A stretch of DNA of 64,000 nucleotides from Halorientalis persicus (GTDB lineage Archaea > Halobacteriota > Halobacteria > Halobacteriales > Haloarculaceae). A program made the translations under genes and the position numbers. Below are positions 4,376-28,110 of the stretch, piece by piece (positions within the stretch are counted from its first letter, which is position 1; the number at the start of each line of letters is the position of its first letter). The notes beneath the pieces were generated by a model, which was given only the letters and a program-made list of their open reading frames with translations, was not told the origin of the DNA and ran no database searches. The stretch is taken from positions 1 to 64,000 of the forward strand of contig NZ_FOCX01000009.1 of assembly GCF_900110215.1 (NCBI RefSeq), given 5' to 3'.

Positions 4376-4529
4376 TGTTTCACGCTCCATGTACAGGGGA
4401 TATCGCCCAGGAACAGGGCACAAATCCACGGAAAACCGGAAAAAAGTATGTCCCGACTGGTTGCGATATCTGATTTGAGATACCTTCTCATATTGGCACT
4501 ATGCGCTAACTTGTGGAAGATGCTGTGAC

Positions 4530-5402: not shown

Positions 5403-5522
5403 CGTACTGGCCGCATTTTGAAACGGGGATACAAAAACGCAATGGAGAATTCACCGCTACTGGGCCTTGAAACCAGCAATTTACAGTTCTCGGAGAGCCA
5501 CAACCAAGACAGGCAGACACGC

Positions 5523-7217: not shown

Positions 7218-7487
7218 TGTGCGAATACTTCGGCAGAAGGTCCTATTTAAACTGTCCGGCATATCAAGAACCGTATGCTACAAAATATGCCAAACCATGG
7301 CAAACCGCGCGCGAGATTCGGCCACAAGATACTAGTATTACATTTGCCGGTTTCCGTTATTTGTCTAGTAACTTTCGTGGTATTATGGATCTACAAATGT
7401 GAATTCAATCGGCCTGTGACAGCTCATAATCTTTTACCGGCAAATACTATACCGACTGAATGTAAACTCTGATAATCAAGGACAACA

Positions 7488-7522: not shown

Positions 7523-7612
7523 ATGTCGAAGAATCGCCATACAGCAGACCTCTTCAGTAATGAACGATTCTCAACTCCAAGAGGCCGGTTCGATTATCAA
7601 TGGCAACAATAG
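7523..7612 (+). CDS. 29-residue leader ORF of the transfer operon
   Basis: A short frame MSKNRHTADLFSNERF... of 29 residues begins 28 bases after a TATA box. Its stop overlaps the ATG of the next gene (7600) by 13 bases. The position suggests either a real small protein or a translated leader that couples ribosomes to the next gene. It has no recognisable motif. Confidence 0.4.
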   Translation: MSKNRHTADLFSNERFSTPRGRFDYQWQQ

Positions 7613-7893
7613 AGCGACGAAACATTCGCTCGCAGATCCCGACACATCTGTGGGTGTATGTCCACAGTTGTGAACGGCTAACGATTGCTGGATTGTTAAC
7701 TGAGATGATTCGACGCGAGATGCGGCGTGATGGGATCAATCCCAAACGCGCACGCACTGCCTTCCAAGATCCGCCCGCCCCGTTCGATAACATTTCTCTA
7801 GATGTTGTCAACGAGGAGCTGATGGGCATCAACGATTACCGCGAATTCGTCAACTCTCAAATCACCCATGAAAATGCACAACCAAGCGATTGA
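7600..7893 (+). CDS. Small basic hypothetical protein, first large ORF of transfer operon
   Basis: This is a 97-residue protein, basic in its N-terminal half (ERRNIRSQIP, MIRREMRRDGINPKRAR) and acidic at the C-terminus. No membrane helix is visible. The N-terminal pattern is compatible with a small DNA-binding fold, but I do not recognise the family. It overlaps the leader ORF by 13 bases and the next gene by 26 bases, so the three are probably translationally coupled. Its place ahead of the VirB2-like gene suggests a regulatory or accessory role in DNA transfer. Confidence 0.6.
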   Translation: MATIERRNIRSQIPTHLWVYVHSCERLTIAGLLTEMIRREMRRDGINPKRARTAFQDPPAPFDNISLDVVNEELMGINDYREFVNSQITHENAQPSD

Positions 7894-8350
7894 GCGTATC
7901 GCCCCTGAATCACCTTTCCGCCTTCGCTCGCTAATGGCGATCCTCCGCGCAAAGGCCGATCGGCTAACTGTGGCGTTCGGTGAGAAGATCATAGCTGGGA
8001 TCCTGCTGGTGCACCTCTATGCAGGCCCCGCTCTTGCCCAGAGTGGTGGTGGGCCACTGTGTAGTGGCGCTGAGAACAGTGGTGGTGGGCAAGCACTAGC
8101 GGGACTCATGAATACGTTCTTCCAACTCGCGTTTTCAATCGGCGCCCTCGGCGTGGCGGTGACATTCTTCGGCACGACGTTGGGGATGTCGTTCTCGTTC
8201 CTCTCACAGGATCAGGAAGAGAACCTCAAGCGCGCACGGAAGAAAGCATTCGGCAGCTTTGGGATGCTCTTCATCGGTGCGATTGCCATTTCGGTTGGGA
8301 TCAACCAGCTAAACATCCTCGGCTGCATTAACCCGGTCCCGTTCAGCTGA
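7868..8350 (+). CDS. VirB2/TrbC-like two-helix membrane protein
   Basis: The 160-residue protein has an N-terminal hydrophobic signal-like segment ending in PALAQ (about residues 43-58). A Gly-rich segment with two Cys follows, then two hydrophobic helices (about 75-105 and 125-148) separated by a charged loop (SQDQEENLKRARKKA). This signal, helix, short charged loop, helix layout is that of VirB2/TrbC pilin-like subunits. Cys82 or Cys64-type residues might form a disulfide outside the cell. Start codons at 7868, 7874 and 7934 are possible. It opens the membrane part of the transfer operon and may form the pilus or pore subunit. Confidence 0.6.
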   Translation: MKMHNQAIERIAPESPFRLRSLMAILRAKADRLTVAFGEKIIAGILLVHLYAGPALAQSGGGPLCSGAENSGGGQALAGLMNTFFQLAFSIGALGVAVTFFGTTLGMSFSFLSQDQEENLKRARKKAFGSFGMLFIGAIAISVGINQLNILGCINPVPFS

Positions 8351-8423
8351 GGCTGACCCCCAAAACAATCTAATCGGTCTTCACTCCAGTTCCACCACAC
8401 CCCACAGTGCCCCTCCGCCCTCC

Positions 8424-10310
8424 ATGAACGAGAGAGCCCTCCGAGACGCCAGTAGGTTGCTGCTGTTCGTGAGTTGCATCTCTCTCATCGTGGTTGGGCC
8501 CGTGGTTGGACACCCCGATCCGGACGACCACGAGGAAGAGGGTAACGGGCTTACCGACAACGAAACCGCCCGACTGTGGTCGCTAGACAGTGACCAATTC
8601 GTCTCGGAAAGCACGCTGAACAACATTTCAGACGGAGGTAGCAATCGAACATTAGAACAGGCACTCTGGAACGGGACAGATTACATTCACCAACTGCCCC
8701 CACGAACCCCGATCACGTGGAATCGACACGATCACCATGATTTCCCGGCAAACTTGACGACCTCATACTGGCACCCTCTGCCCGAGGAAGCGGATATAAC
8801 TGCAGTCAAGAACGTCCCGCTTCTCAATGCGAAAGAGAAGGACCGATCTGTCGGAATCCCGGGTTCGGAGTTCGAGGAAGGCGACCGTGGATGGATCCAG
8901 GACGCCCACGCCACGATGTTCGCACTCCAACCCTCGACGCACCTGCTGAAGGGGCCAGATGAAACGGTCCAGTATATCGATCCCGAAGGCGAAGTCCTCG
9001 GAACGGTCGATTACCGGGTGCGCGTGCCCGGTCCCGACAGTCTTGGATCAGACCGCCGGGCCATCTTCAAACTCCAGCGCCACGAGATCGAATCCACCTG
9101 TGTCGTACAGGGCGGTGACCCAGACCGTGAAGATATCTGTTCCAGTGAGTACGTCATCGGAACGGGCGACGGGTCGCACACGCCCACGATCAACTTCAGC
9201 GCGTCAGGGCGAGCGGGATCCCAGCAGCGGATTTCATTCGCCGCTGAGGTTCGAGTGACGATGCTGAAGGAGATCCAAGAGTGGCAGGAGCAAGAGAATG
9301 GTCCCGGCTTCTGGGAGACCGTTCAGGAGAACCACATCGATTCAGAGAAAGTCGTGTCTGATACTGAAGAAGTGACGGTCTACAACACGCCACGAGCAAC
9401 CGCGTATGCGTTTGAATTTCCATCCCAACGGCAGAAGATGGGCGTCAGCTTCGCTGCCCAAATGCCGTGGGCAGGTATCGATCTGCCGGGTGAAACCCGA
9501 ATCAACACCCTGTATCGGTTCTACACCGCACGGGACGACACATGGGACACGCTTCGGATCAAGGGGCAGGGCAACGAGAACATCATCAATTCGAGCCTGC
9601 ACCCCGCCCGAACCTACGCATTCCCCTACAAGGGCGGACCAGACGTTGATCCAAGCCCGATCAACGTCTCCATCATAGACACGATCGGGCGGGCAGAGTA
9701 CCAGTCTCCGAGCCCGGCAATCCCGGAGAACGTGAGTGTCTCGCCGGTCCCGAAGGACACCAACTACACACAGCCCCAGACTGTCGTCGCCCGTGTCAAC
9801 AGCTACGATCCGAGTGAAATCCGGGCACTCGGACTCGTCCACGGGATAAACCTCTCAAACGACGACCTGCCGGTTGAGCGGAAAGCGAACGTGACACGCC
9901 CCGAGATAGAGACAGAACTACTGGAGTTCAACAATTCCCACGCACTGTTTGCGGTGACAGTGACGGACGCGAGTGGCGATCCCATTCGGACAGCTGGGAC
10001 GGACGCCTATCTCGAGTACATGGGCGAGCAGTACGACACCAACGCGAGCGGGCAGGCGGTAATCCGAACCCCGAGTTCGACAAACCCCCGAATCACGTAC
10101 GTCCCCGCTGACTGGTGGGCGACCGACGATCCACAACTCTCAGCCAGTACCGACGCACCGGCACGGTCATCGATTAGCACAGCTGACGGAATTGCTGGCA
10201 TTATCTCACGGGTGATCATGCTAGCCATCCCGTTCCTCCTGACGTTTTGGCTGATGGACAAAGTGCCGGGGATCAGCACCTGGCCACCCCGTGAAATCCT
10301 CAAACGATAG
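8424..10310 (+). CDS. Large secreted protein with C-terminal membrane anchor
   Basis: This 628-residue protein has an N-terminal signal (LLLFVSCISLIVVGPVVGH). A long extracellular part of mostly beta character contains many N-glycosylation sequons (NET, NRT, NGT, NLT). A C-terminal hydrophobic helix (VIMLAIPFLLTFWLMD, about 590-610) ends in a short basic tail. No catalytic motif is visible. The region near 500-580 resembles Ig-like or carboxypeptidase-regulatory-like repeats (VTDASGDPIRTAG). In the operon it lies between the VirB2-like and VirB6-like genes. It may therefore be a surface component contacting recipient cells or the S-layer, an inference from context only. Confidence 0.65.
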   Translation: MNERALRDASRLLLFVSCISLIVVGPVVGHPDPDDHEEEGNGLTDNETARLWSLDSDQFVSESTLNNISDGGSNRTLEQALWNGTDYIHQLPPRTPITWNRHDHHDFPANLTTSYWHPLPEEADITAVKNVPLLNAKEKDRSVGIPGSEFEEGDRGWIQDAHATMFALQPSTHLLKGPDETVQYIDPEGEVLGTVDYRVRVPGPDSLGSDRRAIFKLQRHEIESTCVVQGGDPDREDICSSEYVIGTGDGSHTPTINFSASGRAGSQQRISFAAEVRVTMLKEIQEWQEQENGPGFWETVQENHIDSEKVVSDTEEVTVYNTPRATAYAFEFPSQRQKMGVSFAAQMPWAGIDLPGETRINTLYRFYTARDDTWDTLRIKGQGNENIINSSLHPARTYAFPYKGGPDVDPSPINVSIIDTIGRAEYQSPSPAIPENVSVSPVPKDTNYTQPQTVVARVNSYDPSEIRALGLVHGINLSNDDLPVERKANVTRPEIETELLEFNNSHALFAVTVTDASGDPIRTAGTDAYLEYMGEQYDTNASGQAVIRTPSSTNPRITYVPADWWATDDPQLSASTDAPARSSISTADGIAGIISRVIMLAIPFLLTFWLMDKVPGISTWPPREILKR

Positions 10311-10315
10311 CAACC

Positions 10316-11329
10316 ATGCACGATACCAACCCCCCATCGCAGAACGGCGCTGAAACGGACGAGAAGACGGCATCACAGACGACAGCGGAATTGCGGACGA
10401 GCAACCACAGCGAATCCATGACCGAAGAACAGTCGATGCTGACCCGACGTAACGCTCTGCTCACGATCGCCGCTGGTGCAACGACTGCTCTCGCCGGCTG
10501 TAGCGACACTGGCCCGGGTGGGAACAGTACCGGAGACAACGGATCCAACGGACTGGTGGACGGAAACGCCATCAACACCCTCGAAACCAACGGGTACGAT
10601 CTCGTTGTCTCGCTCAACACCAGTGCAGAAACCAACCGAGTACGGTTGGTTGACCAGGAGGACTCGGAACTATCGAGTACCAGCGTTGGTGCTGGCGTCG
10701 GGCAAGTGTCTCTCTCATACGAAGGCTACGAGCCCGGCGAATATTCAGTCCTGGCGGTGAGCGGTGGGAACGTCATCGATGAGGAGACGATTACCTTCTA
10801 CCCCGAGCTCACGATTACAGAAGTTGGCGCAATTAGCCAGGACTCGCCTGATCCGTCCGAATTCAAACGTATTCCAGAGTCCAAGAAAGATGCGGCTATC
10901 GAAAACAACCGTCAGATCTGGGTGACAATCGAGAATACCGGAAATACTGCAGTGACAGTTACAAATATGACCTTTATTGGCAGTGAAGTTAGAGATGATT
11001 TTCAAGTAGACGCCCCCGCAGACAGGAGTTCTTCTAACCTAATGTCGCACATGCATAATGATGTGACAGCAGACGATGAGACTACTATTAATCCAGGGGG
11101 GACTTTCAACGCGCTCTCTAATGGAGACCCCTACGGATTTGAGACTTGTATTAACACTAGTGGAACTGTCGAAATTACGGTAATGTCGAAAGAACTCCCC
11201 GATCTTTCGGTGGAAACCGAGTATACCCGAAGTGCAGAGGCGGGCGATTGGCAGGATGAAGATATCGCTGAAAGGTACAAAGAGTGCCCAGGTTCGCTTG
11301 AAGAAATTGATCCCGTGACCAGTGAGTGA
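10316..11329 (+). CDS. Tat lipoprotein of the transfer operon
   Basis: After 41 polar residues the protein has a twin-arginine signal (TRRNALLTIAAG) and a lipobox (TALAGC). Processing would leave an acidic lipoprotein of about 275 residues. An ATG at 10418 (MTEEQSM) would give a shorter, more usual pre-sequence and may be the real start; 10316 follows the previous stop by five bases. The mature part is beta-rich, without catalytic motifs. Base composition changes inside the gene near 10930: the 3' third is clearly more AT-rich, and this continues into the next gene. It may act like a VirB7-type outer-face lipoprotein. Confidence 0.7.
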   Translation: MHDTNPPSQNGAETDEKTASQTTAELRTSNHSESMTEEQSMLTRRNALLTIAAGATTALAGCSDTGPGGNSTGDNGSNGLVDGNAINTLETNGYDLVVSLNTSAETNRVRLVDQEDSELSSTSVGAGVGQVSLSYEGYEPGEYSVLAVSGGNVIDEETITFYPELTITEVGAISQDSPDPSEFKRIPESKKDAAIENNRQIWVTIENTGNTAVTVTNMTFIGSEVRDDFQVDAPADRSSSNLMSHMHNDVTADDETTINPGGTFNALSNGDPYGFETCINTSGTVEITVMSKELPDLSVETEYTRSAEAGDWQDEDIAERYKECPGSLEEIDPVTSE

Positions 11330-11334
11330 TTTGG

Positions 11335-13119
11335 ATGGGGCTGCTAGACGTCGTTACTAAGGGTATCACTGGGGCCATTGAAGCGATAGTCAATGGCATA
11401 GGTACAGTCCTTGGTAATGCGATTAGCACTGTAATTGATTTTGTCACCTACGTCCCCAAGCCTCAAGTCGATAATGGGTATGTCATTGGCGAACCTACAA
11501 ACGGTGTCTGGCAAGTCATCTATCAGTCACGGTGGGGGCAAGATCCCCACCTGATTCCACTAGGTCTGCTGATTCTAGTGGGCTCATGGTACGCGCGGAA
11601 AGCTGGCGAACCATGGGGTCTATTCAGTAATTACGACAAGAAGAAAGCTGCAAATGGGCTTATCACTGGAGTCATCGCTATGTGGGCAAGCTGGTGGGCA
11701 TTTGGTTATTTGCTCCATTTCAGTAGCGAAATAACATCTTATTTGCTCATAAGTTCTGCCGAGTGGTCTAATCTATTTAGTAACAACTTTGGGCAAGTAG
11801 TCAGCGGGAGCGCGTTTGCTGGATTGATTGTTGGAGTTGTCGGCGTTGGTCTCCTATTGCTTGTTGTCATACTCCATGTTCTTCGAATCTTCGGGGTCTA
11901 CTTCCTGATGTATGCCCTGCCAATCCTTGTTGCGTGCTATTTCGGTGGGGTTCCGGTCGCAAAGGGGATCTCAAAGAAAGCCTTCAAGTATCTCTTTATT
12001 TTTGCTACAATTCCGATCCCAACCGCTCTAGGAGTTTCTCTTACTGCCACGTTTCTCAGCAGTGATAGTTATAGCATTGGTGAATCAGCTGTGACTTCGA
12101 CAATCGTTGAGCCAATGGTACTCACGCTCCCCCTTCTAGTTGGGTTTGTTGTCCCTATCTTCATGATGAGTAGTATCTCTTCAATCGCCAGTATCGGCGC
12201 ATTGAATCAGGCTGCTTCAACGGTGTCTGACCCGCAACATAACCGGGTAGCTGCGAAAGCCTCTGCAGCGAAAGGCGCGGCCGCGTCGAAAGCAAAAGGC
12301 ACGGCAGTGGGCGCTGGGAGCGCCGCAAAAGGAGCCGTTGGGAAGTCAGCCAACGTCGCCGCCCGGCCCGAAGACAACTTCGACGCCGCCAAAGAACGGA
12401 TGGACAACGTCGACGTCGGCGGCGCTGTCAAAGGCAAAGCCACAGATGTAGCAGATAAGGCCCACTGGAAGGCGAGTCAGAAAGCAGGGAGCATCAAAGA
12501 GACAGGCAGCCAATACAAGAGTCTCGCCAGTAGGGGAAAATCATACGGTGAAGAAGCGATCGATAATGACCCGTTCGAGAGCGTTCCTCCGGAGAACAGT
12601 CTCCCCGAAGGTGAAGGTAGAAAACAACTGCCCAGTGCCGATTACCCCGCGTCGGATGGGCCAGAATGGAACGAAGCGAGCGTTCGCGATCGGATCACCA
12701 AAGGCAACGCACAAGACACGCTTAGTCGGACTGGCACGCACGACGTTCCCGACGCAGGCCGGTCGACGCCCGACGAAACTCTTGACACTGGCGAATACCA
12801 GGCCACGGAGAACGAGATCCGCCAGCCCGACGACATGGGCAGGGATGGTCCTGCCCGATTAGACGACGGCGACGATCCGGATGGACCACCGCCGGGTGGC
12901 GGAGGAGCGATGAAAGATTCCGACACCGGCAGTCCCAACACTGCAGATGGGTCACCGGACACGTCGGGGGGCAGCCACCCGCTCCAGGACTTCTCACCCA
13001 ACAACTCCAGCCCGCCGTCGAAGGACGGGTCCAGTTCCAACGACGGCGACGGCGGCGGCACAGAGTGGCTCACGGACATCGCTGATCCGAACGACTCCAC
13101 CGACAACGAGGGATCCTGA
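11335..13119 (+). CDS. VirB6/TrbL-like polytopic membrane protein
   Basis: This is a 594-residue protein. An N-terminal amphipathic part is followed by about five to six hydrophobic helices between residues 75 and 285 (for example LLILVGSWYA, GLLLLVVILHVL, PLLVGFVVPIFM). Ala/Lys-rich coiled-coil repeats come next (about 300-420), then a long acidic disordered tail rich in Asp, Gly, Ser and Pro. This is the layout of TrbL/VirB6 channel proteins with a soluble tail. A GTG at 11326 overlaps the previous stop (GTGA) and is an alternative start. The membrane part is AT-richer than the tail; the change occurs near 12230, suggesting recombination. Confidence 0.65.
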   Translation: MGLLDVVTKGITGAIEAIVNGIGTVLGNAISTVIDFVTYVPKPQVDNGYVIGEPTNGVWQVIYQSRWGQDPHLIPLGLLILVGSWYARKAGEPWGLFSNYDKKKAANGLITGVIAMWASWWAFGYLLHFSSEITSYLLISSAEWSNLFSNNFGQVVSGSAFAGLIVGVVGVGLLLLVVILHVLRIFGVYFLMYALPILVACYFGGVPVAKGISKKAFKYLFIFATIPIPTALGVSLTATFLSSDSYSIGESAVTSTIVEPMVLTLPLLVGFVVPIFMMSSISSIASIGALNQAASTVSDPQHNRVAAKASAAKGAAASKAKGTAVGAGSAAKGAVGKSANVAARPEDNFDAAKERMDNVDVGGAVKGKATDVADKAHWKASQKAGSIKETGSQYKSLASRGKSYGEEAIDNDPFESVPPENSLPEGEGRKQLPSADYPASDGPEWNEASVRDRITKGNAQDTLSRTGTHDVPDAGRSTPDETLDTGEYQATENEIRQPDDMGRDGPARLDDGDDPDGPPPGGGGAMKDSDTGSPNTADGSPDTSGGSHPLQDFSPNNSSPPSKDGSSSNDGDGGGTEWLTDIADPNDSTDNEGS

Positions 13120-13238
13120 ATCGATGCACAGTCACCCAGTTTCCCGTCACCAGAATCGGCCGGTGCCCCCGTTTCAGCGGGTGTCGGCGTCTATCGCAGT
13201 CTCAACTCGACAAGTGATCCACCCACCCACTACAACTA

Positions 13239-14351
13239 ATGCCCGCGAATAGCCCCCACTCACGATTTGTCGTCGAGACGCTCGAACGCCCAGACACGCT
13301 CGCGTACATCAACGTCGATCGCCAAGACGGGTACATCGTCGGCGGTCCAGCATTTGCCCTGCTGTTACTGGGGACGATGCTGGGACTCGGTGTCGGTGGG
13401 TTCCTCCTCGCCTTTGTCGGGATGTTCATCGGCGGGACGATCGTCTGGGCCAGCCCCGATCAGATGAACGGCTTCCAGTGGGTCAAGACTCTCTGGTATT
13501 ACAAGACCCAACCGGAGCAGGTTGACTCAGAGGAAGAAGCCGCCGTCGAAGCCAACGACGGGCTCATGGGCTATTTCGTCACTGACGAGGATACCCAGGA
13601 GTTCACCAATATCGAGCGGTGGTATCCCGACTTCCACGTCATCAAGCGGACTGACGGCGCGCTCGTCGGCGGGTACAAACTCGAGCCCGGCAACATGGGC
13701 TTTGTCTCTCCCCGCAAGCGCGCCCGAATCCGACAAACGATTGCGGAATGGGCCAACAACAACGGCCGGTTCCCCTTCCAGCTGTACGTGACTTCGACCT
13801 CCTACCCGGTCGAGGACTACGGCGAAAACCTCAAAGACCGGCTCCAGAGCGAAGACCTCGAAAACGCCCCTGTCCAGCAAGCAGTCCTGCAGTCTGAAAT
13901 CGAGAACCGCCCCCGTGGGCTGAACGAGACCGGACAGGGGATGCGAGAGTACTATCTCATCACCCACGTCGACACGTCCGACATTATCAAGTCCCAGACC
14001 GGGGAGAAGACCCCGCTGGAAAAGCTCACTGAGGTCCCCTTCATCGGCATCTTCTTCCAGGGAATCGCCCACCAGAAGGAGGTTTCTGACACGCTCGAAC
14101 GCGACCGAAAGATGATGCAAACACTACGGGAACGCCTCGAAACCATCGACACGCAGTTGATCGACCAAGTTCCGTCTTGGAGTGGCGAGCCGTTAGAAGT
14201 CGAGGAATGGGTCGAACTACAGCACCGTTTCTGGACGGGACAGGAGCCCCAGTACGCGGATGTTTCGGATCACATCTCGGAGCAGGCCCACGTCGAAGCC
14301 CGACCGCATGAAGAGGGTGAACTTGACCCTGACATGGAGGAAGTAGCATGA
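13239..14351 (+). CDS. VirB3/PrgI-like membrane protein with VirB4-type N-domain
   Basis: The 370-residue protein has two adjacent hydrophobic helices near residues 35-72, as in VirB3/PrgI-type proteins. A soluble domain of about 290 residues follows and resembles the non-ATPase N-domain of VirB4/TraC (DFHVIKRTDGALVGGYKLEP, REYYLITHVDTSD). The ATPase domain itself is in the next gene, which overlaps by four bases (ATGA). The pair probably forms one functional VirB3/VirB4 unit at the cytoplasmic face of the channel. Family assignment is by layout and context, not by a diagnostic motif. Confidence 0.6.
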   Translation: MPANSPHSRFVVETLERPDTLAYINVDRQDGYIVGGPAFALLLLGTMLGLGVGGFLLAFVGMFIGGTIVWASPDQMNGFQWVKTLWYYKTQPEQVDSEEEAAVEANDGLMGYFVTDEDTQEFTNIERWYPDFHVIKRTDGALVGGYKLEPGNMGFVSPRKRARIRQTIAEWANNNGRFPFQLYVTSTSYPVEDYGENLKDRLQSEDLENAPVQQAVLQSEIENRPRGLNETGQGMREYYLITHVDTSDIIKSQTGEKTPLEKLTEVPFIGIFFQGIAHQKEVSDTLERDRKMMQTLRERLETIDTQLIDQVPSWSGEPLEVEEWVELQHRFWTGQEPQYADVSDHISEQAHVEARPHEEGELDPDMEEVA

Positions 14352-16933: not shown

Positions 16934-16984
16934 CGAGCAACGGCACTCAATCTCGACCCTCTCCCACACTACGACACAGCACAC

Positions 16985-19900
16985 ATGGCCTCAAATCCAA
17001 ACACGATCAAATTCGAGCCCCACAACAGCGGCGCAGATATCGGTTTCCGGACGAAGGAATTCATTCGCGTCACTCCCTCAACTGAGGAATTTGACGAGGG
17101 GAACGCAATCACGCACCTGCGGGCCCTGTTGGACATGAAGTCCGGATCAGGGTCGTGGCACCTCCCCAAGCTATCGTCCGACTCGGATGATCCGACGATT
17201 GAATTCCTGGCACTCACGGAAGGCGAAGGGCGTCCAATCGAGATCTACTACGGTGCGGATGCCGGTATCGCAGCCCTCAAAGACCGGCTGGAAGAGATTT
17301 ACCCGAACTCCTTCGAGATCGAGCGGGTGAACATCGACGTCGAGCGCAAACTGAGCAAGCAGGTGTATCTCCCGGTCCCGAAATTCGTCGAACACCTGAA
17401 GGCAGGGAACCTTCGGCCCGACTACGACGATATCACGGTTTCGACCGGGAAGACGGATCTGCCTGTGGCAGCAGACGACGTTGACAAGCAATTCACCGAC
17501 GAGCGATCGGCCGCTGGTGGAGGGCCAGCTGACCCCGACGACCTGGGCTCTGCAACGACAGGGGACTCATTCGTCGCTGACGTTCACGCCGAGGCATCGG
17601 AACACTATCACGTCGACTATACGGTCGGTGAAGACGGTGAGGTCGAGCCAGATGAGACGGATGTCCAAGTCAAAACAGACGCTGACCAATCTGAAGCCCA
17701 ACCCGCACCCGAGTCTAAAACCCAGCCTGAAGACGAATCTACAGACACATCAGCCAACTCATCTGAAGAAGCATCTGCTAAGACGAATGGAGACCACGCC
17801 AAACCTGTAGAAACAGACGGGGATAGCACTAGCGAACCCGCAGAACCTCCGACCGAGGGCACAGCGGAGAGCAGTGACAGAGCCGAACAGACAGCCAAAA
17901 ACGGGTCTGAACCACCAGAGGACGACAGTGAAAGCGAGGATACTGAGCCAAATCCCTCAGAGTCCGTTGAAAAAGACTCCAATGACCCCGACGATCCGAA
18001 CCCGATGTTGGGGATCTTCGGAGATAAAGAGGAACTTGCCGAAGAAGAGACACCCTCTAGTGAAGACGCCACTGGTGGTACCTATCCTGTGAGTGGTGAC
18101 GACGAGGACGGCGACGACAGCACAGACGACACCGCCTCTACCGACGACACGGATTCTGACGCAGACGACGATCCAGATGTCCGGAGCGACGGCGGGAAAA
18201 TCCGGCCCAAATCCCACACTGGATCCAACGACTCCGAAGACAGGACGGACGGCAGCAAACAGGACGACGAACTCCACGGCGAGGACGTTCGCGAGATCGA
18301 ATGGCTCGGTGACGAAATCGAATACACGGAGGACGGCACGCCGCTCCGCCACATCGACAACACGATTCCGCTCCAGAACGGGGATGTCGTTCTCCTGCAC
18401 GACGAGTCCATCGCGCCTGATGAGAACGAATCAAAAGTTACCGCTCCGGGGCCTGTTGCAGTTGACGACGATCTCGTGCTAGTGCGGCCTGCCCCAGAGG
18501 GAACGTCCTCCGTCGCAGCGCGCTGGCGTGGCGAGGCCGAATGGCGCAACGACTGGATGACCACGCTCGGGTCCGACACCCGGTCCCCGGCGTCGAAGGC
18601 CAACCGTGGCACGATGATGGGGCAGGAAACCGCTGACAGCGACTTCAACCTGCCCGATCCCGATTCGATGCTGGGGCCGATCCTCAACGAACTCTCGAAA
18701 TCCAAAGAGCCGCTGGCCTTCCAGGTGACGATCAACCGCAAAGAGGACTGGAAGTCCCAAATGCACAAGCGGAAGGTCGACGTCGAGGACAACACCGAAG
18801 CGTGGCTCAACAAGTTCTGGAACATGGTCGTCCATCAGGGCGACTCAAAGTCCGCAGAAGATCGTGAACTCAAACCGAACGAGCAGCGCCGGCTGGAGCT
18901 GATGGAAGCCAAGACGCCCAAGGAAACGTGGGAGGCAAACATTCGGGCGGTGATGCCGCTCACGACGGCCGCGCCGGGTGTAATCAGCGGGAAATCCGAT
19001 ATCGCATCCGCTGACAACACGACCGATGAAGAAAAGCGGACCCAGAAGTACGCCGAAGAAACACTCCAGACGATCAGTCGAGCCCTCAACGATCTGAGCG
19101 GTGCATTCTACCGGCTCGATTCAGAAGTGCTGACCCCGGATTCATCGTGGGGTCGGAACAACACGGACTCGATTACCGAGTACAAGAGCCTTCTAGAACG
19201 GAGAGTGAACACTGGCCGCGGTGAGGAGGGGATGGTCAAGAAGCTCATCACCGGGAAGCGATACTATCCCCACTTTGTGGTTGGCCCGGCAGAACTCCTG
19301 CCGCTGTTCACAATCCCACCAGAAGAATCACTTGCAGCGGAAGTCTACCGCAACACAATCGAGCGGCAGAAATCGGAAAACCCGCTTCCACGGCCGAACC
19401 CACAGCTGTTGGACGAGTATCGCGAGGGCCTCCCGGTCGGCTATCCGATCGACCAGCAGGGATACCCCGAAGAAGAGACCGCTCGCCTTCCCCCCGGAAA
19501 ACTCACCCAGCACATCGCCCGGTTTGCCCGGACGGGGGCCGGGAAGTCGATTGCCGTGGAGAACGATATGCTCCACCTCGACGAAAACGTGGCTGGGCCG
19601 ACGATCTTGATCGACCCCAAAGGCGACGGTCTCGCCGGCGAGTTCCTCCAGGCCTACTACAAGAAACACGAGAACCTGGACTCGGTGTACCACTTCAAAG
19701 CGCCCGATCTGATTCCGGCAATCTCCTTCTTCGATATTCGGCCACAGCTGGCGGCCGGGCGCGCTCGCGAGGACGCAATCCAGAGCAAGGTCCGGCAGTT
19801 CCACGAAGTAATGGCGATGGTCATGGGTCGCGAGGAGTACGAAGCGGCCTACGCAGCGAAAGACATCATTGCCTTCCTGATCACCGCGCTGTTCGACAAG

Positions 19901-22900
19901 GACAATAATCTGAACGGCGAGGACGAGGAGGGCAACCCGATGCCGGATCCGACCGACGACGCGTTCACACTCAAAGAATTGTACCTGGTAGCCAAGCGGA
20001 TGACCGAACACAAGGAGGTTCCTAAAGCCCCCAACAGCGACCGTGACATCGAAAAGGTGCTCACTCGCCAGTTTGCCAAGACCGACCAGTCCTTCCAGAA
20101 CTCCATGTCGGCGGTGTTGAATCGATTCGAGAAGGTCATGCAGGACCCCCAGCTCTGGCGGGCGATGAACCACGTCGCCGAGTGGGACCACGACAAAGGC
20201 GATTACGCAGATGACGCTGCTATCTTCGATTTCAGGAAAGTCATCGAGGACGACGACGCCGTGGTGCTGTTCGACCTCGGGCGGCTCGAAGAAGGCAAGC
20301 ACGCCTTCTCGTCGCTCCTGCTATCTGTTCTCTGGGATGCCGTCCAGAAGCGGAACATGGAACAGCAAAACGAGTACGACAAGATTGTCAACCTCATCAT
20401 CGAAGAGGCTGCGCCTATCACAGCAACCCGGCTGGTCCGGGAAGACTTGATCCCCGAATCCCGGTCGTTCGGGATGAGCCTCGAGTTCGTGATGCAGTAT
20501 CCGGGACAGGTCAAAGAAGAATCCGAACGGGCCTACGAGGAACTGTTCAACGACATCCACACCAAGATTTTCGGCAACATCGAGAAGGAGATCAACGTCT
20601 CCGAGATCCTCGCGACGGACACAAAACCGCCCGAGGAGATGCAGAACAAACTCCAACAACTGCCGCCGGGTGAATGGATTGCATCCCTGCCGGCCTCGAA
20701 GTTCCACGGGCAAGTGCCCACGCCGTTCAGTGTCCGGGCGCTTGATATTCCGAGCGGGCATCCCGAATCGTCTGCGCCGCTCACGGAACGAGAACGCGAC
20801 CGCTTCGAGGACGACTACGACAACCGATACGAGGCAACGCTCAAACAACACGCCGTTGACCGCCCGGAAGTCGTCGACACCGCCTACTACGACGGCGAAG
20901 TTCGATATCAGTCCAAACAAGACGGTTCACAGCAGGAGGATACCGGTGCGTCTGTAGACGGAGAGAGCCGAGCATCGGGAGCCCAACAGCAGGGCACAGA
21001 GGATAGCGACAACCTCAACGGACATATTGACGATCTTGAAAGCTTCTCTGATCGAGGCAGCCACAATACGACCGAAAGCGTTGGAGACAGTGTCTTTAAC
21101 GACAGCAAGTCCGACGCAGAAGACGATCAAAACACAGGCCCAGTGGCGGCAGGTCCAACTACTGAAGGAACGCAAGACGACAGCAACTCCGACAACGGTG
21201 CAAAAACCATTCCTGGCAGTGTCGGTCTCGCCACAGAGTCGGAAACAGACACGGGTGAGGATGAAAAACCTCCCAACGACGGAAACGGGTCTAAGACCGA
21301 TCTTACCGAAAATGGAGCGTCACAGCCAACGGGTGCCTCCGGAGCAGCCACTGTAGACCCTCCCAACGAGTCAAACTCTGACGCAGAATCCCAACACGAA
21401 GCAAAAGCAGCCGCGGAGGGCGCTGCCGAAGGGTCAGAACCAGACCCGGAAGAACCCGCACAGGAATCAGAGATCGAATCCGGCAAGAACGACACCGATG
21501 CGGACGAAGAGCAGGCTGATGAGCAGGGATTAAATTCAGTCACCGATCTCCCGGCCCACATCACACTCACCGACGACGAATTCTATGAGTGTACGATCTG
21601 TGGATCGCGGTTCGCTCCAAGCAAACCAACATTAGCAGCCCAGTGTTGCCAGTTCGACTCGCAGATGGCGGCAATCCACGTCGGCGGGTACATCAACGCC
21701 AAGTACGACGATAAATACGAGTTTGCTCAACACGTCCAGAAGTTGAACGACCAACGGCGACGGATCGGCCTCGATCCGATTGAAGAGGAATTCGTCGCTG
21801 AAGATGATTTCCCCGACCACCAGGACCACAACGTCGATGAGCTCCCGAACCGGGTCACATACCACGAGCCCGGAGAGTATCGGTGTGAAATCTGCCATTC
21901 CTACCACACAGCAGGGCGCTGGAAGCGTGCATTCGGTTGCTGCGATATCGAAGACGTAGAAGAAGCCCAGACGATCCTGAGCGGCATCTTCTACGAACAC
22001 GACGTCAAATCAGTCAGGGAAATCCCCAGTGAACAATGGGCAGAAATCACACGCCAACTCACCACAGCAGCGAGTGATATCCCACTGTCAGAGCTTCAAC
22101 GCGCACCAAAACCCACGGGTATCAATGCCGGTCCGTGGTGGGAAACCGCGTCGGTTGATCCCGACGATATGCCTGTTGAACCCCAGGATGGATATGGAAC
22201 CACCGAAGACGAAAGTAGCGCCGAGACTGCCGACGAAGAGCATGAGTTGAGCGAAGACGAAGACCGCGAGATAGGTGAGGGGCTCGATTACGAAAGAGAC
22301 ACTGGGGCTGCCGAGACCGACAGTGACGATGGGCAGAGCGAATCTGTCTCTTTCACCGACACAGAGTCGGTGTTTGAAGAGTACACAAGAGAGAGGATCA
22401 AAGAAGCAGAAGCTGCGAAAGGATTGAACGAAGACGATAGGGAGTTTCTCGAAGCGGTTGCCCATGCGTTAGCAGATAAAGACCATCCGAAACTAGAGGG
22501 ATACCATCTCCTTGACAGTATGAACAATCTCGTACAGAGGTTCACTAACCCACAGATTGAGGCCTTCAAGAAGATGGGGTATCTGCGTGAAGATGATACC
22601 TACCGTGCAAAGTACTACGATCTCACTGACGATGGGTGGCAGAGAGTCGAGTCGGTAACAAAGCCCACAAATACAGAAGGTGACGTTGGAGAGAACGTTG
22701 CCCACCGAGTCGGCGTTAAGCGTGTGAAATACTACCTCTTGGAGGAGAAAGATGCTGTTGAGTCTGTGGAAACATACCATCAGCCAGAAGGGGCCGACGA
22801 GGTCATTGACGTCGTTGGATACGGTGAGAACGGGAACGTCAAACACGTGGCTGAGGTGGAAACGGATTCAAACGATTATCAATCGATCCGTGACGACTGG

Positions 22901-23170
22901 AATACAATGGTTACACAGAACGTGCCCGCCCTGTGGGCCGTTCCTGACAAAGATGCAGCAGAGACAGTCCTCCGAGCGCTCAAATCCAAGGTTCCAGAGT
23001 TCAGAGAGAAAGACTACGGCGAATTGGAGTCGGTTGACCATATTTATCAAATTCGCGATTGGGCGCTTTTCGACGACGACGAGAATCGGATTCACGCTGC
23101 TGGAATCACTGATATCAAGTCTCTCAAATCAAACGCGTTCAAGGGCTTCGACCTGGAGGACTACGAATGA
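16985..23170 (+). CDS. Giant VirD4/TraG-like coupling protein with zinc knuckles and nuclease-like tail
   Basis: This 2061-residue protein is about three times the usual coupling-protein length. An N-terminal domain (1-170) is followed by a long acidic disordered stretch (about 180-460). A VirD4/TraG-like ATPase core comes next: Walker A RTGAGKS near 849-855, DPKGDG about 30 residues later, and Walker B LIIEEA near 1137-1142. A second acidic stretch (1310-1525) precedes two tandem CxxC-x14-CC modules (C1536/1539/1554/1555 and C1634/1637/1652/1653). The C-terminus has a winged-helix-like part and a segment with D1942 and E1957-V-E1959, compatible with a PD-(D/E)xK-like nuclease fold. The tail region after about 22370 is AT-richer. 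The last bases overlap the primase gene (ATGA). Coupling role: likely; nuclease role: inference. Confidence 0.8.
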   Translation: MASNPNTIKFEPHNSGADIGFRTKEFIRVTPSTEEFDEGNAITHLRALLDMKSGSGSWHLPKLSSDSDDPTIEFLALTEGEGRPIEIYYGADAGIAALKDRLEEIYPNSFEIERVNIDVERKLSKQVYLPVPKFVEHLKAGNLRPDYDDITVSTGKTDLPVAADDVDKQFTDERSAAGGGPADPDDLGSATTGDSFVADVHAEASEHYHVDYTVGEDGEVEPDETDVQVKTDADQSEAQPAPESKTQPEDESTDTSANSSEEASAKTNGDHAKPVETDGDSTSEPAEPPTEGTAESSDRAEQTAKNGSEPPEDDSESEDTEPNPSESVEKDSNDPDDPNPMLGIFGDKEELAEEETPSSEDATGGTYPVSGDDEDGDDSTDDTASTDDTDSDADDDPDVRSDGGKIRPKSHTGSNDSEDRTDGSKQDDELHGEDVREIEWLGDEIEYTEDGTPLRHIDNTIPLQNGDVVLLHDESIAPDENESKVTAPGPVAVDDDLVLVRPAPEGTSSVAARWRGEAEWRNDWMTTLGSDTRSPASKANRGTMMGQETADSDFNLPDPDSMLGPILNELSKSKEPLAFQVTINRKEDWKSQMHKRKVDVEDNTEAWLNKFWNMVVHQGDSKSAEDRELKPNEQRRLELMEAKTPKETWEANIRAVMPLTTAAPGVISGKSDIASADNTTDEEKRTQKYAEETLQTISRALNDLSGAFYRLDSEVLTPDSSWGRNNTDSITEYKSLLERRVNTGRGEEGMVKKLITGKRYYPHFVVGPAELLPLFTIPPEESLAAEVYRNTIERQKSENPLPRPNPQLLDEYREGLPVGYPIDQQGYPEEETARLPPGKLTQHIARFARTGAGKSIAVENDMLHLDENVAGPTILIDPKGDGLAGEFLQAYYKKHENLDSVYHFKAPDLIPAISFFDIRPQLAAGRAREDAIQSKVRQFHEVMAMVMGREEYEAAYAAKDIIAFLITALFDKDNNLNGEDEEGNPMPDPTDDAFTLKELYLVAKRMTEHKEVPKAPNSDRDIEKVLTRQFAKTDQSFQNSMSAVLNRFEKVMQDPQLWRAMNHVAEWDHDKGDYADDAAIFDFRKVIEDDDAVVLFDLGRLEEGKHAFSSLLLSVLWDAVQKRNMEQQNEYDKIVNLIIEEAAPITATRLVREDLIPESRSFGMSLEFVMQYPGQVKEESERAYEELFNDIHTKIFGNIEKEINVSEILATDTKPPEEMQNKLQQLPPGEWIASLPASKFHGQVPTPFSVRALDIPSGHPESSAPLTERERDRFEDDYDNRYEATLKQHAVDRPEVVDTAYYDGEVRYQSKQDGSQQEDTGASVDGESRASGAQQQGTEDSDNLNGHIDDLESFSDRGSHNTTESVGDSVFNDSKSDAEDDQNTGPVAAGPTTEGTQDDSNSDNGAKTIPGSVGLATESETDTGEDEKPPNDGNGSKTDLTENGASQPTGASGAATVDPPNESNSDAESQHEAKAAAEGAAEGSEPDPEEPAQESEIESGKNDTDADEEQADEQGLNSVTDLPAHITLTDDEFYECTICGSRFAPSKPTLAAQCCQFDSQMAAIHVGGYINAKYDDKYEFAQHVQKLNDQRRRIGLDPIEEEFVAEDDFPDHQDHNVDELPNRVTYHEPGEYRCEICHSYHTAGRWKRAFGCCDIEDVEEAQTILSGIFYEHDVKSVREIPSEQWAEITRQLTTAASDIPLSELQRAPKPTGINAGPWWETASVDPDDMPVEPQDGYGTTEDESSAETADEEHELSEDEDREIGEGLDYERDTGAAETDSDDGQSESVSFTDTESVFEEYTRERIKEAEAAKGLNEDDREFLEAVAHALADKDHPKLEGYHLLDSMNNLVQRFTNPQIEAFKKMGYLREDDTYRAKYYDLTDDGWQRVESVTKPTNTEGDVGENVAHRVGVKRVKYYLLEEKDAVESVETYHQPEGADEVIDVVGYGENGNVKHVAEVETDSNDYQSIRDDWNTMVTQNVPALWAVPDKDAAETVLRALKSKVPEFREKDYGELESVDHIYQIRDWALFDDDENRIHAAGITDIKSLKSNAFKGFDLEDYE

Positions 23171-24255
23171 CGTGGGAGTCGAGCGACCCTGCTGACATCC
23201 GGTCATATTATATCGACGAGTTCCCGGAATATCGCGAAAAACTGCCCAATTACATTGGACCACACACACCGACTGAATACGCGATTGCGTTCAGAGACGA
23301 ACATCCAGTCTCGGGGAGTGGAATGCCCGATCGGGACTTCATCCGCCGGAGTACCTGGGCCACAGATGAGGACGGCTCACTCCAGCATAAACATTTCCCG
23401 TTGTTCTCCGAGCTACTGAATTTCATCCAGTACCCGGCCAGATATGATCCGCTTCAACGGATAGATGCCGACGCGCAGCTGGTTGATCCCGCTGTCCCGG
23501 GTATTGATAGTGACCCTGTTTCAGCGGCAGTCTACTACAGCGCGACACTCCACGAGGGGCCGTGGCAGTTGTTCATCGATATCGACGCCAAAGATGTCGC
23601 AGCCGAGCGTGCAGCGGACGCATACGGCGAGAAGGCTACCAGCCTTCGCGATGATGAGCTTCGTCGGAAGGCGGGTATCGTCGACGAACCACCCGCCGGC
23701 AAGCACTACGCGTTTCAGGATATTCGCCAGTCGCTAGAGTATGGATTCACGGTCAAAGGCATCCTTGAGACTCAATTCAACGCCAGTGTCGTGGAAGTGC
23801 GGTACTCTGGGCAGGGGTGTCACGTCGTCGGTCTCGATGCAGATAGCGCCCACCAATACGACACAAAAGCCCGCACTGTGATCGCGACGCTCATCGAAGA
23901 AGAGTTCGGGATCCCGATTGACGCGGAAGTGACGCCAGATCGTTCGCGTGTCATGCGGCTGCCTTACTCCCTCCATTCGGAGGTATCGCGGATTGTAACT
24001 CCCATTTCATCACCGGATTTTGACTTCCGGGAAGAGGCGACTCCAGAGTTCCTGGACACAACTCATCGGGGTGGACACGGTGGTGGGGGTGACAGCACCA
24101 AGTCCACAGAAAGCGATGGGGCAGACCCCGACGCGGACGGGTCGGGTGCAATGACACCAGACGGGGCTGATGAGGTACTTCAGGAGTCCAATAGCGGGGG
24201 GAGCGATAGTAGCAGCACCGCTCACACCAAAGACAACACGACTACGAACTCATGA
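23167..24255 (+). CDS. PriS-like archaeo-eukaryotic primase small subunit
   Basis: The 362-residue protein shows the three hallmarks of archaeo-eukaryotic primases. A DxD metal-binding pair lies in LFIDIDAKD (D138, D140), a nucleotide-binding SGQGCHVV has His219, and a third motif RSRVMRLPYSLH spans about 259-270. The C-terminus (about 290-362) is low-complexity. It probably synthesises primers, either for plasmid replication or on the transferred single strand in the recipient, as primases of conjugative elements do. It overlaps the coupling protein gene and the next gene by four bases each, so all three are translationally linked. Confidence 0.8.
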   Translation: MTWESSDPADIRSYYIDEFPEYREKLPNYIGPHTPTEYAIAFRDEHPVSGSGMPDRDFIRRSTWATDEDGSLQHKHFPLFSELLNFIQYPARYDPLQRIDADAQLVDPAVPGIDSDPVSAAVYYSATLHEGPWQLFIDIDAKDVAAERAADAYGEKATSLRDDELRRKAGIVDEPPAGKHYAFQDIRQSLEYGFTVKGILETQFNASVVEVRYSGQGCHVVGLDADSAHQYDTKARTVIATLIEEEFGIPIDAEVTPDRSRVMRLPYSLHSEVSRIVTPISSPDFDFREEATPEFLDTTHRGGHGGGGDSTKSTESDGADPDADGSGAMTPDGADEVLQESNSGGSDSSSTAHTKDNTTTNS

Positions 24256-25871
24256 GCTCGGAGCAATCCAAACACGACGTCGGAGAGAAATATACGATGG
24301 ACGCAACGGAGAGCCTATTAGCTGCATACCGAACGGCTGCTCTCCCAGTCGAATACACGGGATCTGCCCATCGGACGCTCTATGATCGAGGGCTTGACGT
24401 TCTACAAGAGCGTCACAGTATCTCTCAAATCGATCAACCTCAATCAGAATCCGGCAGTGGTGATTCTGATGGGGCCTCATTGGACCTGCATGGGCTGATT
24501 GATCGGTTTGGGACGATTGCGATTGATCGCGGGCTTGATCGGAAAGTAACGGGAGAGCCCCCATTCCGGGATCCTGCCGTCCTCGCCACTACAGCCACAC
24601 TCGCGAGCTATATCATCACGAACCAGGAGAAGTACAAGGGCGTCCCGGAGAAGAACAGCAAACTGCTCACGGATATTCGTGATTACTACATCACACGCCT
24701 GACGCGGATGATCCGGGAACACAACGACCAGGACATCATTCTACAGGAACTCGCAGAGGTTCTCTACAGTAAACCAGAGCCAGAAGACGGACCGATCCCA
24801 AGTCGGATTTGCACGGACGTACGGGAAATGGATGAGTTTGGAGGCCGATTATACCTCGAAATACCCGTGGCCTCTGCCTCCCCACAGTGTCTCGTCTACC
24901 GAAGTGATGGCAGTGTCGGGGCCCGATACAACGCCGACACAGGAGAGAAAGAAGGCGATCTGCTGACCCACACCAAAGATAACCACCTGTACGTCCCGGC
25001 GGTACACGCAGAATACAAGCTTCGCGAACGGCTCAAAGACGACTTCTTTGCCCTGTTGTTCTCGATAGAAGACACGCTCGGCGACGAACAACAAGAATGG
25101 TTCCTCAATGGCGAGTACGGGATGGTCAAGGAACTTGAAAAGTGGGTCCGGACCGGACAAAACCAGCGGATCTACAACGACTGGGACCCCGACACGCAGT
25201 TCGCGCGCACCATTGAAAACGCAATCGGAGACGCTGACAGCTATCAGACCGGGCAAACCTTCACCCTCTCCGCGCTGTACGAGATCCTTTCAGAGTACGA
25301 GCCTGAACGTGACTGGGAGAAGAAACGGCTCCGCCGGATAACAAGCCCTGAAGCACTCCATGAGAGCCTTGACGCTGTGATTGAGTCTATGCCGACCTGG
25401 GAACGGGTCACGACAGGCACCGAGACAGACGCCTACTACATCGACGAGACATCCAGTCAGTACAAAGAGGTCCACGTCGACGAAATCAGCGATCTCTTTG
25501 AACTTCCCTGCTTTCAGAACCTGCGAGACAAACTTCACCAGCAGCCTCCAGTCCGCAAGTGGCTGTTCAGTTTCGTCCGTCTTTGCAGCTGGCTACCACA
25601 ATATTACGACGCCGATGACGAGAAGCTCGTCCAAGACATCAAAGACATCTTCTCACAGTTCCCGTGGTACGACGAAGCCACGACAGAATACCAAACTCGG
25701 TACGAACTCTCCAACACGATCGCCGGCAACACCCCGCTCCCAATGCACTGTGACAACGACACGATGCAGCTATTTTGCATCGGCCAAGAGACGTGTGACT
25801 ACAATATCTACAGTTCTATCGACTTCGATAAAGAACTGTACCAAGAGATTGACGAGCGAAATTCGTCGTAG
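24252..25871 (+). CDS. PriL-like partner with C-terminal Cys (Fe-S-like) motif
   Basis: This 539-residue protein follows the PriS-like gene with an ATGA overlap. Its C-terminal 60 residues match the pattern of the PriL iron-sulfur domain: a W..Y..A...YQ segment, NTIAGNTPLPMHC with Cys500, then CIGQETC with Cys509 and Cys515, followed by an aromatic stretch. The rest (helical N-terminal domain, then DFFALLFSIEDTLGDEQQEWF and so on) is not recognisable to me. A fourth Cys ligand would have to come from upstream, such as LPCFQN or RLCSW. Together with the preceding gene it probably forms a two-subunit element-encoded primase. Confidence 0.65.
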   Translation: MSSEQSKHDVGEKYTMDATESLLAAYRTAALPVEYTGSAHRTLYDRGLDVLQERHSISQIDQPQSESGSGDSDGASLDLHGLIDRFGTIAIDRGLDRKVTGEPPFRDPAVLATTATLASYIITNQEKYKGVPEKNSKLLTDIRDYYITRLTRMIREHNDQDIILQELAEVLYSKPEPEDGPIPSRICTDVREMDEFGGRLYLEIPVASASPQCLVYRSDGSVGARYNADTGEKEGDLLTHTKDNHLYVPAVHAEYKLRERLKDDFFALLFSIEDTLGDEQQEWFLNGEYGMVKELEKWVRTGQNQRIYNDWDPDTQFARTIENAIGDADSYQTGQTFTLSALYEILSEYEPERDWEKKRLRRITSPEALHESLDAVIESMPTWERVTTGTETDAYYIDETSSQYKEVHVDEISDLFELPCFQNLRDKLHQQPPVRKWLFSFVRLCSWLPQYYDADDEKLVQDIKDIFSQFPWYDEATTEYQTRYELSNTIAGNTPLPMHCDNDTMQLFCIGQETCDYNIYSSIDFDKELYQEIDERNSS

Positions 25872-28110
25872 TCCGGCGTTAATTTTCCCGGAATAGCGCA
25901 CCTTCTCCATTGGGTTTCCCGGTAAAAATAGCCCCTGTCTTCCGCCAATAATCACCACAACCCACGCAATCAGTAACAAACTTAGCCACGCGGAGTGGGT
26001 ACGATCATAGCTGGATCATCGATAATTTATCCATATATCTCTGACAGAGAAGTAAAAATATTATAATCGATATTGTCTGAGTGAATAGTTGGAACTAGCG
26101 TATCAAATAGAGAAAGCACCCGTGGCACAAACATAGATTATCAGATACATGGGCCACTCAGCCATTCACGGCGGTGGGTCTCTCAGCGTTCGTCCCAGCA
26201 CAATCAGACAAGTCCAACTGTCGATCATGCTCACAAATCAGACTCCTATCCGCTCTCACGCCGGTCAGGTTCATAGATACATACACAAAAGAAATAGCAA
26301 AATGATTCTACTATACAAGTCGATTACACTGCGAATACGCAATTCAATGTATTGAGTTATAGTATAAGATATAGGCAGAATAGTGGTGGACTATTTCACC
26401 GGGTTTGCACAGTTGCTCGCACACCCCATCAGAACGTGTGTAGATCTCGGGATTAATTTCTCAGCGGCGGTTCTCGCACACAACCGCTTATTCATACTGC
26501 CTACTCCCTAAATTCTACTTTAGCTGATGATATCCATATTACCGATACCAACTAAGAACAATTAGAAATTGTAATGAATATAGTCTGCACCTCATATCAA
26601 CAGTGTGGTAGGCAGACACAGCTGAAGAGAGTGGTGCAGGGATCGCCCGAATCAAGATATTAATTTGTCTTACTGCCAATTTGTTAATGTTAGAAATGAT
26701 CTTTATTTATTTTATACTTATTTGAGCAGGGCAGATATCGCCATGCTACCGGAAACTGATCTTATATCAACTCTCTTACTATGCTTTCACCGTCGCGCTC
26801 AAAGAGCCAGTGTGGTCAGGCCCGGTGGTATGGCGTCGCACTGAGCGCCAATTCAGACTCAATTACCGACTATTATTCTAGTATAACGATTTTATATTAA
26901 CGCTGTCGCCATAGTTCACATTATGTCTTTAATTAGAACAATGATTCTATGGACCGTCCTAATTTTTCGTCTTTTGTGCGCTTCTATTATGCCCGCATTC
27001 AGAGAACAGTATGGGCGTATCTCTCCATTCGATTATCCAGTTTAGCTCCAGAACCGAATGGAACTGAGATATCTGCTGGCGACGATCTTATGTTCCGAAG
27101 TTGTCTCGACGTGACTAAACTCTTGGTTAAATCAAACCAACGGCTTTCATCTAATCAGAACAGGCAGTATATTATGTGTTCTAACAACAGATTATAGGTG
27201 GAAATAACCCTTCTACGAGTACGGAACAACTACCACAGATTCTGTCGAAAATGTGATTATAACACAGAGGATTCCTAACTCTCACTTCACCCTCCCATTC
27301 GGTCACAGCTATAACAGACATACTGCTACGAGGGAGTTCCAGCCACCCGATCGTCACAAGACCCAGATCTCACATCCACTGACACAGAATGTTAGACCCA
27401 GCGTCGTCAGAATATCTCGAAAATCTGAAACCCGAATCTGAGACCGACTCTCTTTAGCCGGAGACCGGATAAACACCCGTTTCAGAACTGTAAAAAACAT
27501 ATTTCCTCTCAAAAATGCTCTTGTAGGAAGTGTAGGTAATGAATCCATCGGTGTGGAGGTGAAATATTGATACAGACGGTCCATGTCGGCTATAGAATCC
27601 ATTTTCACCATTATTTCACTTGTGGCAGGTAGAAATATCTTTGTTTGTGCCGCCCAGACACGCAAAAACACGCAGTGCAGGTGTTCAAATCCAAATACTA
27701 ACACAGTTCTCCACGCTCAGCACGCTTACGTTCCCGAAAACAGCCGAATTACGAGTGGGATTACACGACAGTCCCCCAAATCGCCACTTTCAGCACGCTT
27801 ACGTTCCCGAAAACAGCCGAATTACGAGTGAAATTACACGACAGTTCCCCAAATCACCACTTTCAGCACGCTTACGTTCCCGAAAACAGCCATATTAGTG
27901 GTATTTCACCCCGGAACAGACAGATATATTATTATAATAATCTGACTTCGGGGCGAAAACGGGTATATTACACCGGCAAGATCCAAGAAAAACGCAATTT
28001 TGCGTTTTGAGAAAACAGGATAATATTACCTCCAGACGCAAATAACAGTCTTAGATTGCGTCTAAGGAAAGCTAACGGTTTTAGGTCCGGTTAAACTCTC
28101 AAACACCCCC
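25872..28110. other. 2.2-kb AT-rich gene-poor region
   Basis: This stretch is much more AT-rich than the flanking genes. It holds only short frames without haloarchaeal coding character. It contains scattered TATA-like runs, a 73-bp tandem repeat (27718-27892) and an ACGCAA/TTGCGT motif cluster (27989-28119). Length, composition and repeats fit a replication origin, a transfer origin or a partition region downstream of the transfer and primase operon. Confidence 0.5.
27718..27892. repeat. 73-bp tandem repeat, 2.4 copies
   Basis: Units begin with CAGCACGCTTACGTTCCCG at 27718, 27791 and 27864, an exact 73-bp period. The first two units are nearly identical (differences such as GTGGGATT against GTGAAATT). 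The third breaks off after about 29 bases. No coding frame is conserved through the units, so a protein-binding or structural role is more likely than a coding one. Confidence 0.85.

Follow-up and report, generated by a model that had tools for sequence, protein, structure and literature searches.

A haloarchaeal conjugation-type secretion operon in which the rear half of the coupling protein and a primase probably form a DNA-processing cassette

Earlier work has pointed out that archaeal conjugation can lack a recognisable relaxase, and how such elements cut and copy their DNA is an open question (PMC9905601, PMC12857230). We addressed it at a locus of Halorientalis persicus, within a stretch of 64,000 nucleotides (contig NZ_FOCX01000009.1, positions 1 to 64,000; hereafter the window). 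The window contains a plasmid-borne ten-gene type IV secretion system (T4SS) operon on the plus strand (7600-25871), in which genes for a predicted membrane channel, a VirB4 ATPase and a coupling protein (CP) run directly into genes for PriS-like and PriL-type primase subunits. The operon probably encodes a conjugation-type T4SS of haloarchaea that is equipped with a DNA-processing cassette, made up of the rear half of the CP and the primase.

A sequence-only reading of this DNA had described such a plus-strand gene run. All the genes that it listed are present and the run stops at 25871 as claimed, but it starts one gene earlier, with a 97-aa open reading frame (7600-7893) that is conserved in relatives. 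The ten genes in their order, with two parts of the CP, are as follows.

7600..7893, plus strand: 97-aa small protein, first gene of the operon; related operons have a homologue in this place; without a Pfam family.
7868..8350, plus strand: pilin-like (VirB2-like) protein, 160 aa; T4SS_pilin 0.0058, below the family cut-off; conserved position; two hydrophobic segments.
8424..10310, plus strand: surface protein, 628 aa; hydrophobic segments at the N- and C-terminus; conserved in related operons.
10316..11329, plus strand: lipoprotein; lipobox-like LAGC; conserved in related operons.
11326..13119, plus strand: VirB6/TrbL-like polytopic membrane protein; TrbL_3 7.6e-19 in a Pfam search of the window protein; six hydrophobic segments.
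13239..14351, plus strand: VirB3/PrgI-like protein; two N-terminal hydrophobic segments; VirB4 fusions in two other loci.
14348..16933, plus strand: VirB4 ATPase; P-loop_TraG 1e-10; NCBIfam VirB4 families 3e-43; solved VirB4 4ag5 1e-34 (family profile).
16985..23170, plus strand: CP (VirD4/TraD-like), 2061 aa; DUF87/HerA 0.0019; TraG-D_C 0.16; conserved position; stronger matches in relatives.
22430..22648, plus strand: winged-helix part of the CP C-terminal domain, from an AlphaFold2 model; winged-helix proteins among the fold matches.
22664..23017, plus strand: restriction-endonuclease-like part of the CP C-terminal domain, from AlphaFold2 topology; invariant D1942, E1957 and E1959; weak fold matches.
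23167..24255, plus strand: PriS-like primase catalytic subunit; solved archaeal PriS 1g71 8.9e-10 (family profile); D138, D140, H219 and D252 invariant.
24252..25871, plus strand: PriL-type subunit, named 'primase-associated protein' by NCBI (NF038197, 1e-215 in NCBIfam); C420, C500, C509 and C515 invariant.

Four gene pairs overlap by 4 nt: lipoprotein/VirB6 (11326-11329), VirB3/VirB4 (14348-14351), CP/PriS (23167-23170) and PriS/PriL-like (24252-24255). The last three had been reported from the sequence alone. The CP/PriS overlap is the same in 40 of 53 PriS/PriL-type loci and the PriS/PriL overlap in 41, so the overlaps are not due to chance.

The protein families point to a transfer system. 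The matches to 4ag5 and to the NCBIfam families establish VirB4, thereby ruling out a non-transfer HerA/FtsK ATPase, and the TrbL_3 match upholds the VirB6-like label. The VirB3-like label rests on the N-terminal hydrophobic segments together with natural fusions of this gene to VirB4 in loci L161 (1070 aa) and L034 (1102 aa). The VirB2-like label is weak: beside the family match below cut-off there are the conserved position and two hydrophobic segments. The window CP, with a Walker A motif near residue 850 and no hydrophobic transmembrane-like segment found in its 2061 residues, was itself matched weakly, and no close relative of it was found among named genomes. Its VirD4-like identity is nevertheless borne out through other CPs of the family, since L032 scores above the T4SS-DNA_transf cut-off and L096 matches TraD at 6.5e-6; these matches also make a non-transfer HerA/FtsK family unlikely for the CP. 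The gene order was sought in other haloarchaea and recurs on plasmids of many genera; pNRC200 carries a partial copy. The membrane genes, whose loss had been named beforehand as counting against a transfer system, are retained in related operons.

Such a machine could alternatively import DNA or export protein. The archaeal Ced and Ted systems share homology with conjugation machinery, and Ced takes up DNA (PMC9905601); CedB shows weak similarity to the window VirB4 (6e-4) and to a type-B CP (5.7e-4). The presence of the operon on many plasmids and of a VirD4/TraD-type CP speaks against this explanation, and the linked primase fits export of the element's own DNA better; we regard import or protein export as very unlikely. 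A defence system was also considered and set aside, PADLOC having returned only mad8, an ATPase match.

Both primase subunits could be assigned in line with the labels given to them from the sequence. PriS is identified by the match of its family profile to 1g71 and by its catalytic acids D138, D140 and D252, invariant in the family alignment together with H219. The last gene is a divergent PriL, because three lines of evidence converge. Firstly, the five best fold matches of its AlphaFold2 model (predicted local distance difference test, pLDDT, 73) are all PriL/Prim2 structures (1zt2_B, 5of3_E, 5ofn_B, 9f26_B and 2dla), each weak alone (E 0.05-0.2). Secondly, a divergent member of the family, L080, matches the NCBI PriL model PRK02249 at 9.8e-6 and Pfam PF04104 at 2.3e-4, just below the family cut-off. 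Thirdly, the four invariant cysteines match those of the predicted iron-sulfur domain. An hhalign comparison with the host PriL aligned the region of the first iron-sulfur cysteine (E 7e-4 for the single pair, probability 26%), while a search of PDB sequences with the family profile found no PriL. The notion that PriL was a mere NCBI name was set aside in view of the fold and sequence links.

How regularly does a primase accompany such a system? Of 391 haloarchaeal genomes, 104 contain NF038197 and 270 contain VirB4. A primase was present in all 81 CP-bearing haloarchaeal T4SS loci: PriS/PriL in 48, a PrimPol-type primase in 32 and both in one. The PrimPol type comprises 28 NrS-1-like loci, a family that matches the solved NrS-1 primase at 3.5e-38, and four divergent ones. 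These shares are not a census, because the PriS/PriL loci were selected by NF038197. The further T4SS loci came from genomes without it. A second sample of 20 loci was taken from the VirB4 match list regardless of primase. All 12 CP-bearing loci in it had a primase, and four had a PrimPol directly behind VirB4 with no CP nearby. In the other four, which look like remnants, the stretch contained neither a CP nor a primase.

The two primase types are scattered over the VirB4 tree, with about 12 changes among 42 representative loci, a count that is approximate because the trees were built quickly and contain several long branches. The same scatter was seen on an earlier 36-row tree. Across these changes the C-terminal domain of the CP and PriS changed together in 7-8 of 8 supported independent pairs and never oppositely (sign test, p about 0.008). 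Between near relatives with opposite primase types, DNA identity was mostly 81-93% through the operon (72-85% in the weakest pairs). It broke off within the CP gene, in or close to the part for the motor, and the primase region had no DNA homology that could be detected. Several pairs became homologous again some kilobases beyond. The clearest pair is L061 and L094, whose CPs are 86-100% identical to residue 450 and about 25% identical at the C-terminus, the break falling just before the Walker A motif at 516. Because primase type changes with the CP C-terminus and DNA identity ends in the CP motor region, the rear half of the CP and the primase behave as an exchangeable DNA-processing cassette. 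A PriS/PriL locus, L058, also has an NrS-1-type PrimPol at 200-1564, 4.8 kb beyond the CP, possibly a trace or intermediate of such an exchange.

These data bear on a second alternative, that the primase pair serves vegetative replication of the plasmid and merely sits behind the transfer genes. An Orc1/Cdc6 gene lies on the same contig (window 4-1479), and archaeo-eukaryotic primases for replication are often borne by mobile elements (PMC5862659). A PriS/PriL-like pair with no T4SS in the stretch read occurs as well: among 295 genomes of the phylum, the only one outside the order to match NF038197 did so weakly (8.5e-8), at a minus-strand locus (L149, 1125-3456) where a PriS-like gene precedes the NF038197-like gene, and no T4SS gene was found among the large open reading frames read around it. 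A mere replication primase accounts poorly, however, for the switching of the primase together with the CP C-terminus between otherwise similar operons, for its presence in every CP-bearing locus examined, for the 4-nt overlaps that join CP and PriS/PriL, and for the flanking DNA common to some pairs whose primase differs. We consider it unlikely.

The sequence-only reading had proposed that the primase belongs to transfer, and the co-occurrence and joint exchange strengthen that proposal. Linkage, co-exchange and gene overlap together suggest that priming of DNA synthesis is part of transfer. In the arrangement that we envisage, the pilin-like, surface, lipoprotein, VirB6, VirB3 and VirB4 proteins would form the export channel with the N-terminal half of the CP. 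The rear half of the CP (motor, winged helix and endonuclease-like domain) and the co-translated PriS/PriL would form the processing cassette. The CP would select single-stranded plasmid DNA and pass it to the channel, and a complementary strand would be primed by the primase, attached to the CP or close by. Such priming could either replace the donor strand or convert the transferred strand, and might take place in donor or recipient.

Several observations weigh against a strict partnership of CP and primase. In loci L153 and L166 the C-terminal domain of the CP is of the PriS/PriL type, yet a PrimPol takes the place of PriS/PriL; the pairing is thus not absolute, and the rule that this C-terminus always accompanies PriS/PriL, which held in the first sample (53 versus 20), was abandoned upon these two loci of the second. 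At the chromosomal T4SS-like loci L158, L160, L164 and L165, a PrimPol directly follows VirB4 with no neighbouring CP. The divergent primase of 671-677 aa in L159, L171, L172 and C32, a contig of the H. persicus genome itself, was called solely on a homologue of 52% identity that is annotated 'DNA primase family protein' and on motifs recognised by eye, which makes the assignment weaker in these 4 of the 81 loci; the C32 copy is cut at the locus boundary and was recognised via its tail only. Lastly, the linkage of CP and primase could reflect shared regulation.

What, then, might nick the DNA? No relaxase had been obvious in the operon, and this held for the families searched: PF03432, PF08751 and PF02486 were absent from 20 T4SS-bearing genomes with PriS/PriL-type loci. 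The MOBC-type family PF13814 was above cut-off in 0 of 391 haloarchaeal genomes, so that a stand-alone relaxase of that family was rejected. In an AlphaFold2 model (pLDDT 72), the C-terminus of the PriS/PriL-type CP comprises a winged helix and then a restriction-endonuclease-like domain of topology a-b-b-b-a-b-a, in which D1942 lies on strand two and E1957-x-E1959 at strand three, a layout that fits restriction-endonuclease-like (PD-(D/E)XK) enzymes. All three acids are invariant in 24-26 aligned family members. A fold search with this domain returned Hjc, Cas4, tRNA splicing endonuclease and DrdV among the best matches, none significant (E > 0.05, about 0.1), and the domain matched no Pfam or other sequence family, PF13814 included. 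On this modelled structure, the domain is a candidate for the missing relaxase. The PrimPol-type CP ends in a different module with an invariant PD...E-x-E, and its C-terminal winged helix is of the D5/P4-primase type (in L032, Pox_D5 was above cut-off). No homology between the two endonuclease-like modules was detectable by sequence (hhalign E 0.5). The idea that an endonuclease-like domain is unique to the PriS/PriL type was dropped, as the PrimPol type has its own. As a separate observation, the window CP contains two repeated, zinc-finger-like CxxC...CC motifs (residues 1536-1555 and 1634-1653), and a similar motif lies upstream of the C-terminal domain in the exceptional CPs of L153 and L166.

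Even within a CP-primase cassette, the endonuclease-like domain might be a catalytically dead DNA-binding module, an unrecognised relaxase being encoded elsewhere on the plasmid. Its third catalytic position is a glutamate where many enzymes of the fold have lysine, it lacks a Pfam match and its fold matches are weak, and two CPs carry it without PriS/PriL. Some active restriction-endonuclease-fold enzymes, such as BamHI, have E-x-E. The aspartate and both glutamates are kept in every aligned member, the unrelated C-terminus of the PrimPol-type CP likewise keeps its PD...E-x-E, and no relaxase family was found among those tested, all of which argue against this reading; we judge the question of a dead domain to be evenly balanced. 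The fullest form of our proposal is that in haloarchaeal conjugation the CP itself bears a strand-nicking nuclease that replaces the relaxase and, with the matching primase, constitutes a modular cassette exchanged independently of the export channel. We put this forward tentatively, as possible but doubtful in its entirety.

Other features of the window and genome were recorded. Downstream of the PriL-like gene are three tandem 73-nt repeats (100, 92 and 66%; 27708-27926) within an AT-rich stretch (43% GC at 26-28 kb), with imperfect inverted arms at 27537-27566 and 27902-27931; this repeat region (27.5-27.9 kb) is a candidate origin of transfer or replication. A 482-aa protein (30824-32272, plus strand) has a weak OB-fold match (1.6e-4, below cut-off) and is possibly an RPA-like single-strand binding protein. 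Divergent to the operon lies a gene for a membrane-anchored FtsH-like AAA ATPase (5523-7262, minus strand), and L035, another T4SS-like locus of this genome, likewise contains a membrane AAA protein (4332-5921). The minus strand further carries a TnpB-like (Cas12f1-like TNB) gene (35328-36572) and an IS1595-type transposase (56766-57650). The genome has four more VirB4-bearing loci, on contigs C117, C32, C82 and C71; because the C32 system is of the PrimPol type, one cell may hold both primase types.

In bacteria, the primases RP4 TraC and ColIb Sog are encoded with transfer genes and are thought to prime the transferred strand. Some MOBQ relaxases have a primase domain (PMC12857230). A plasmid-encoded primase in bacterial conjugation is already known, and the haloarchaeal operon resembles these systems in encoding a primase with its transfer genes; it differs in that this is either an archaeal PriS/PriL heterodimer of replicative type or a PrimPol of NrS-1 type, and that it is exchanged with part of the CP. 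Both primase types have homologues among known NrS-1-like PrimPols and archaeal PriS/PriL, respectively, but a published account has PriL almost confined to chromosomal primases (PMC5862659), whereas the haloarchaeal PriL type is borne by transfer plasmids. Like bacterial conjugative T4SSs (VirB/VirD4, and the FATA type of monoderms), the operon unites VirB3-, VirB4-, VirB6- and VirD4/TraD-like proteins with a putative pilin; in contrast to them, it has no recognisable relaxase, its CP is extended by a winged helix and an endonuclease-like domain, and an archaeo-eukaryotic primase is co-translated with the CP. The Sulfolobus pNOB8 type, Thermococcus pT33-3 and Ced/Ted share VirB4- and VirD4-like ATPases and the lack of a recognisable relaxase, but the passages on them consulted here, by which alone we set them apart, mention no dedicated PriS/PriL or CP-primase cassette (PMC9905601, PMC12857230). 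A restriction-endonuclease-type nuclease has been proposed for MOBC relaxases (pAD1 TraX, CloDF13 MobC; PMC12857230); the haloarchaeal domain may be alike in type but is fused to the CP, and no PF13814 member was above cut-off in the 391 haloarchaeal genomes. We found no account of the operon, the primase rule or the cassette exchange in a literature search that mostly excluded subscription papers, and earlier notice is possible.

For haloarchaeal plasmids, the joint exchange of the CP rear half and the primase indicates which parts work together. That a primase accompanies a T4SS coupling protein can be tested as a rule on additional genomes. Finally, the residues D1942, E1957 and E1959 of the CP name a candidate nuclease site and PriS/PriL its primase partner, both of which are testable.

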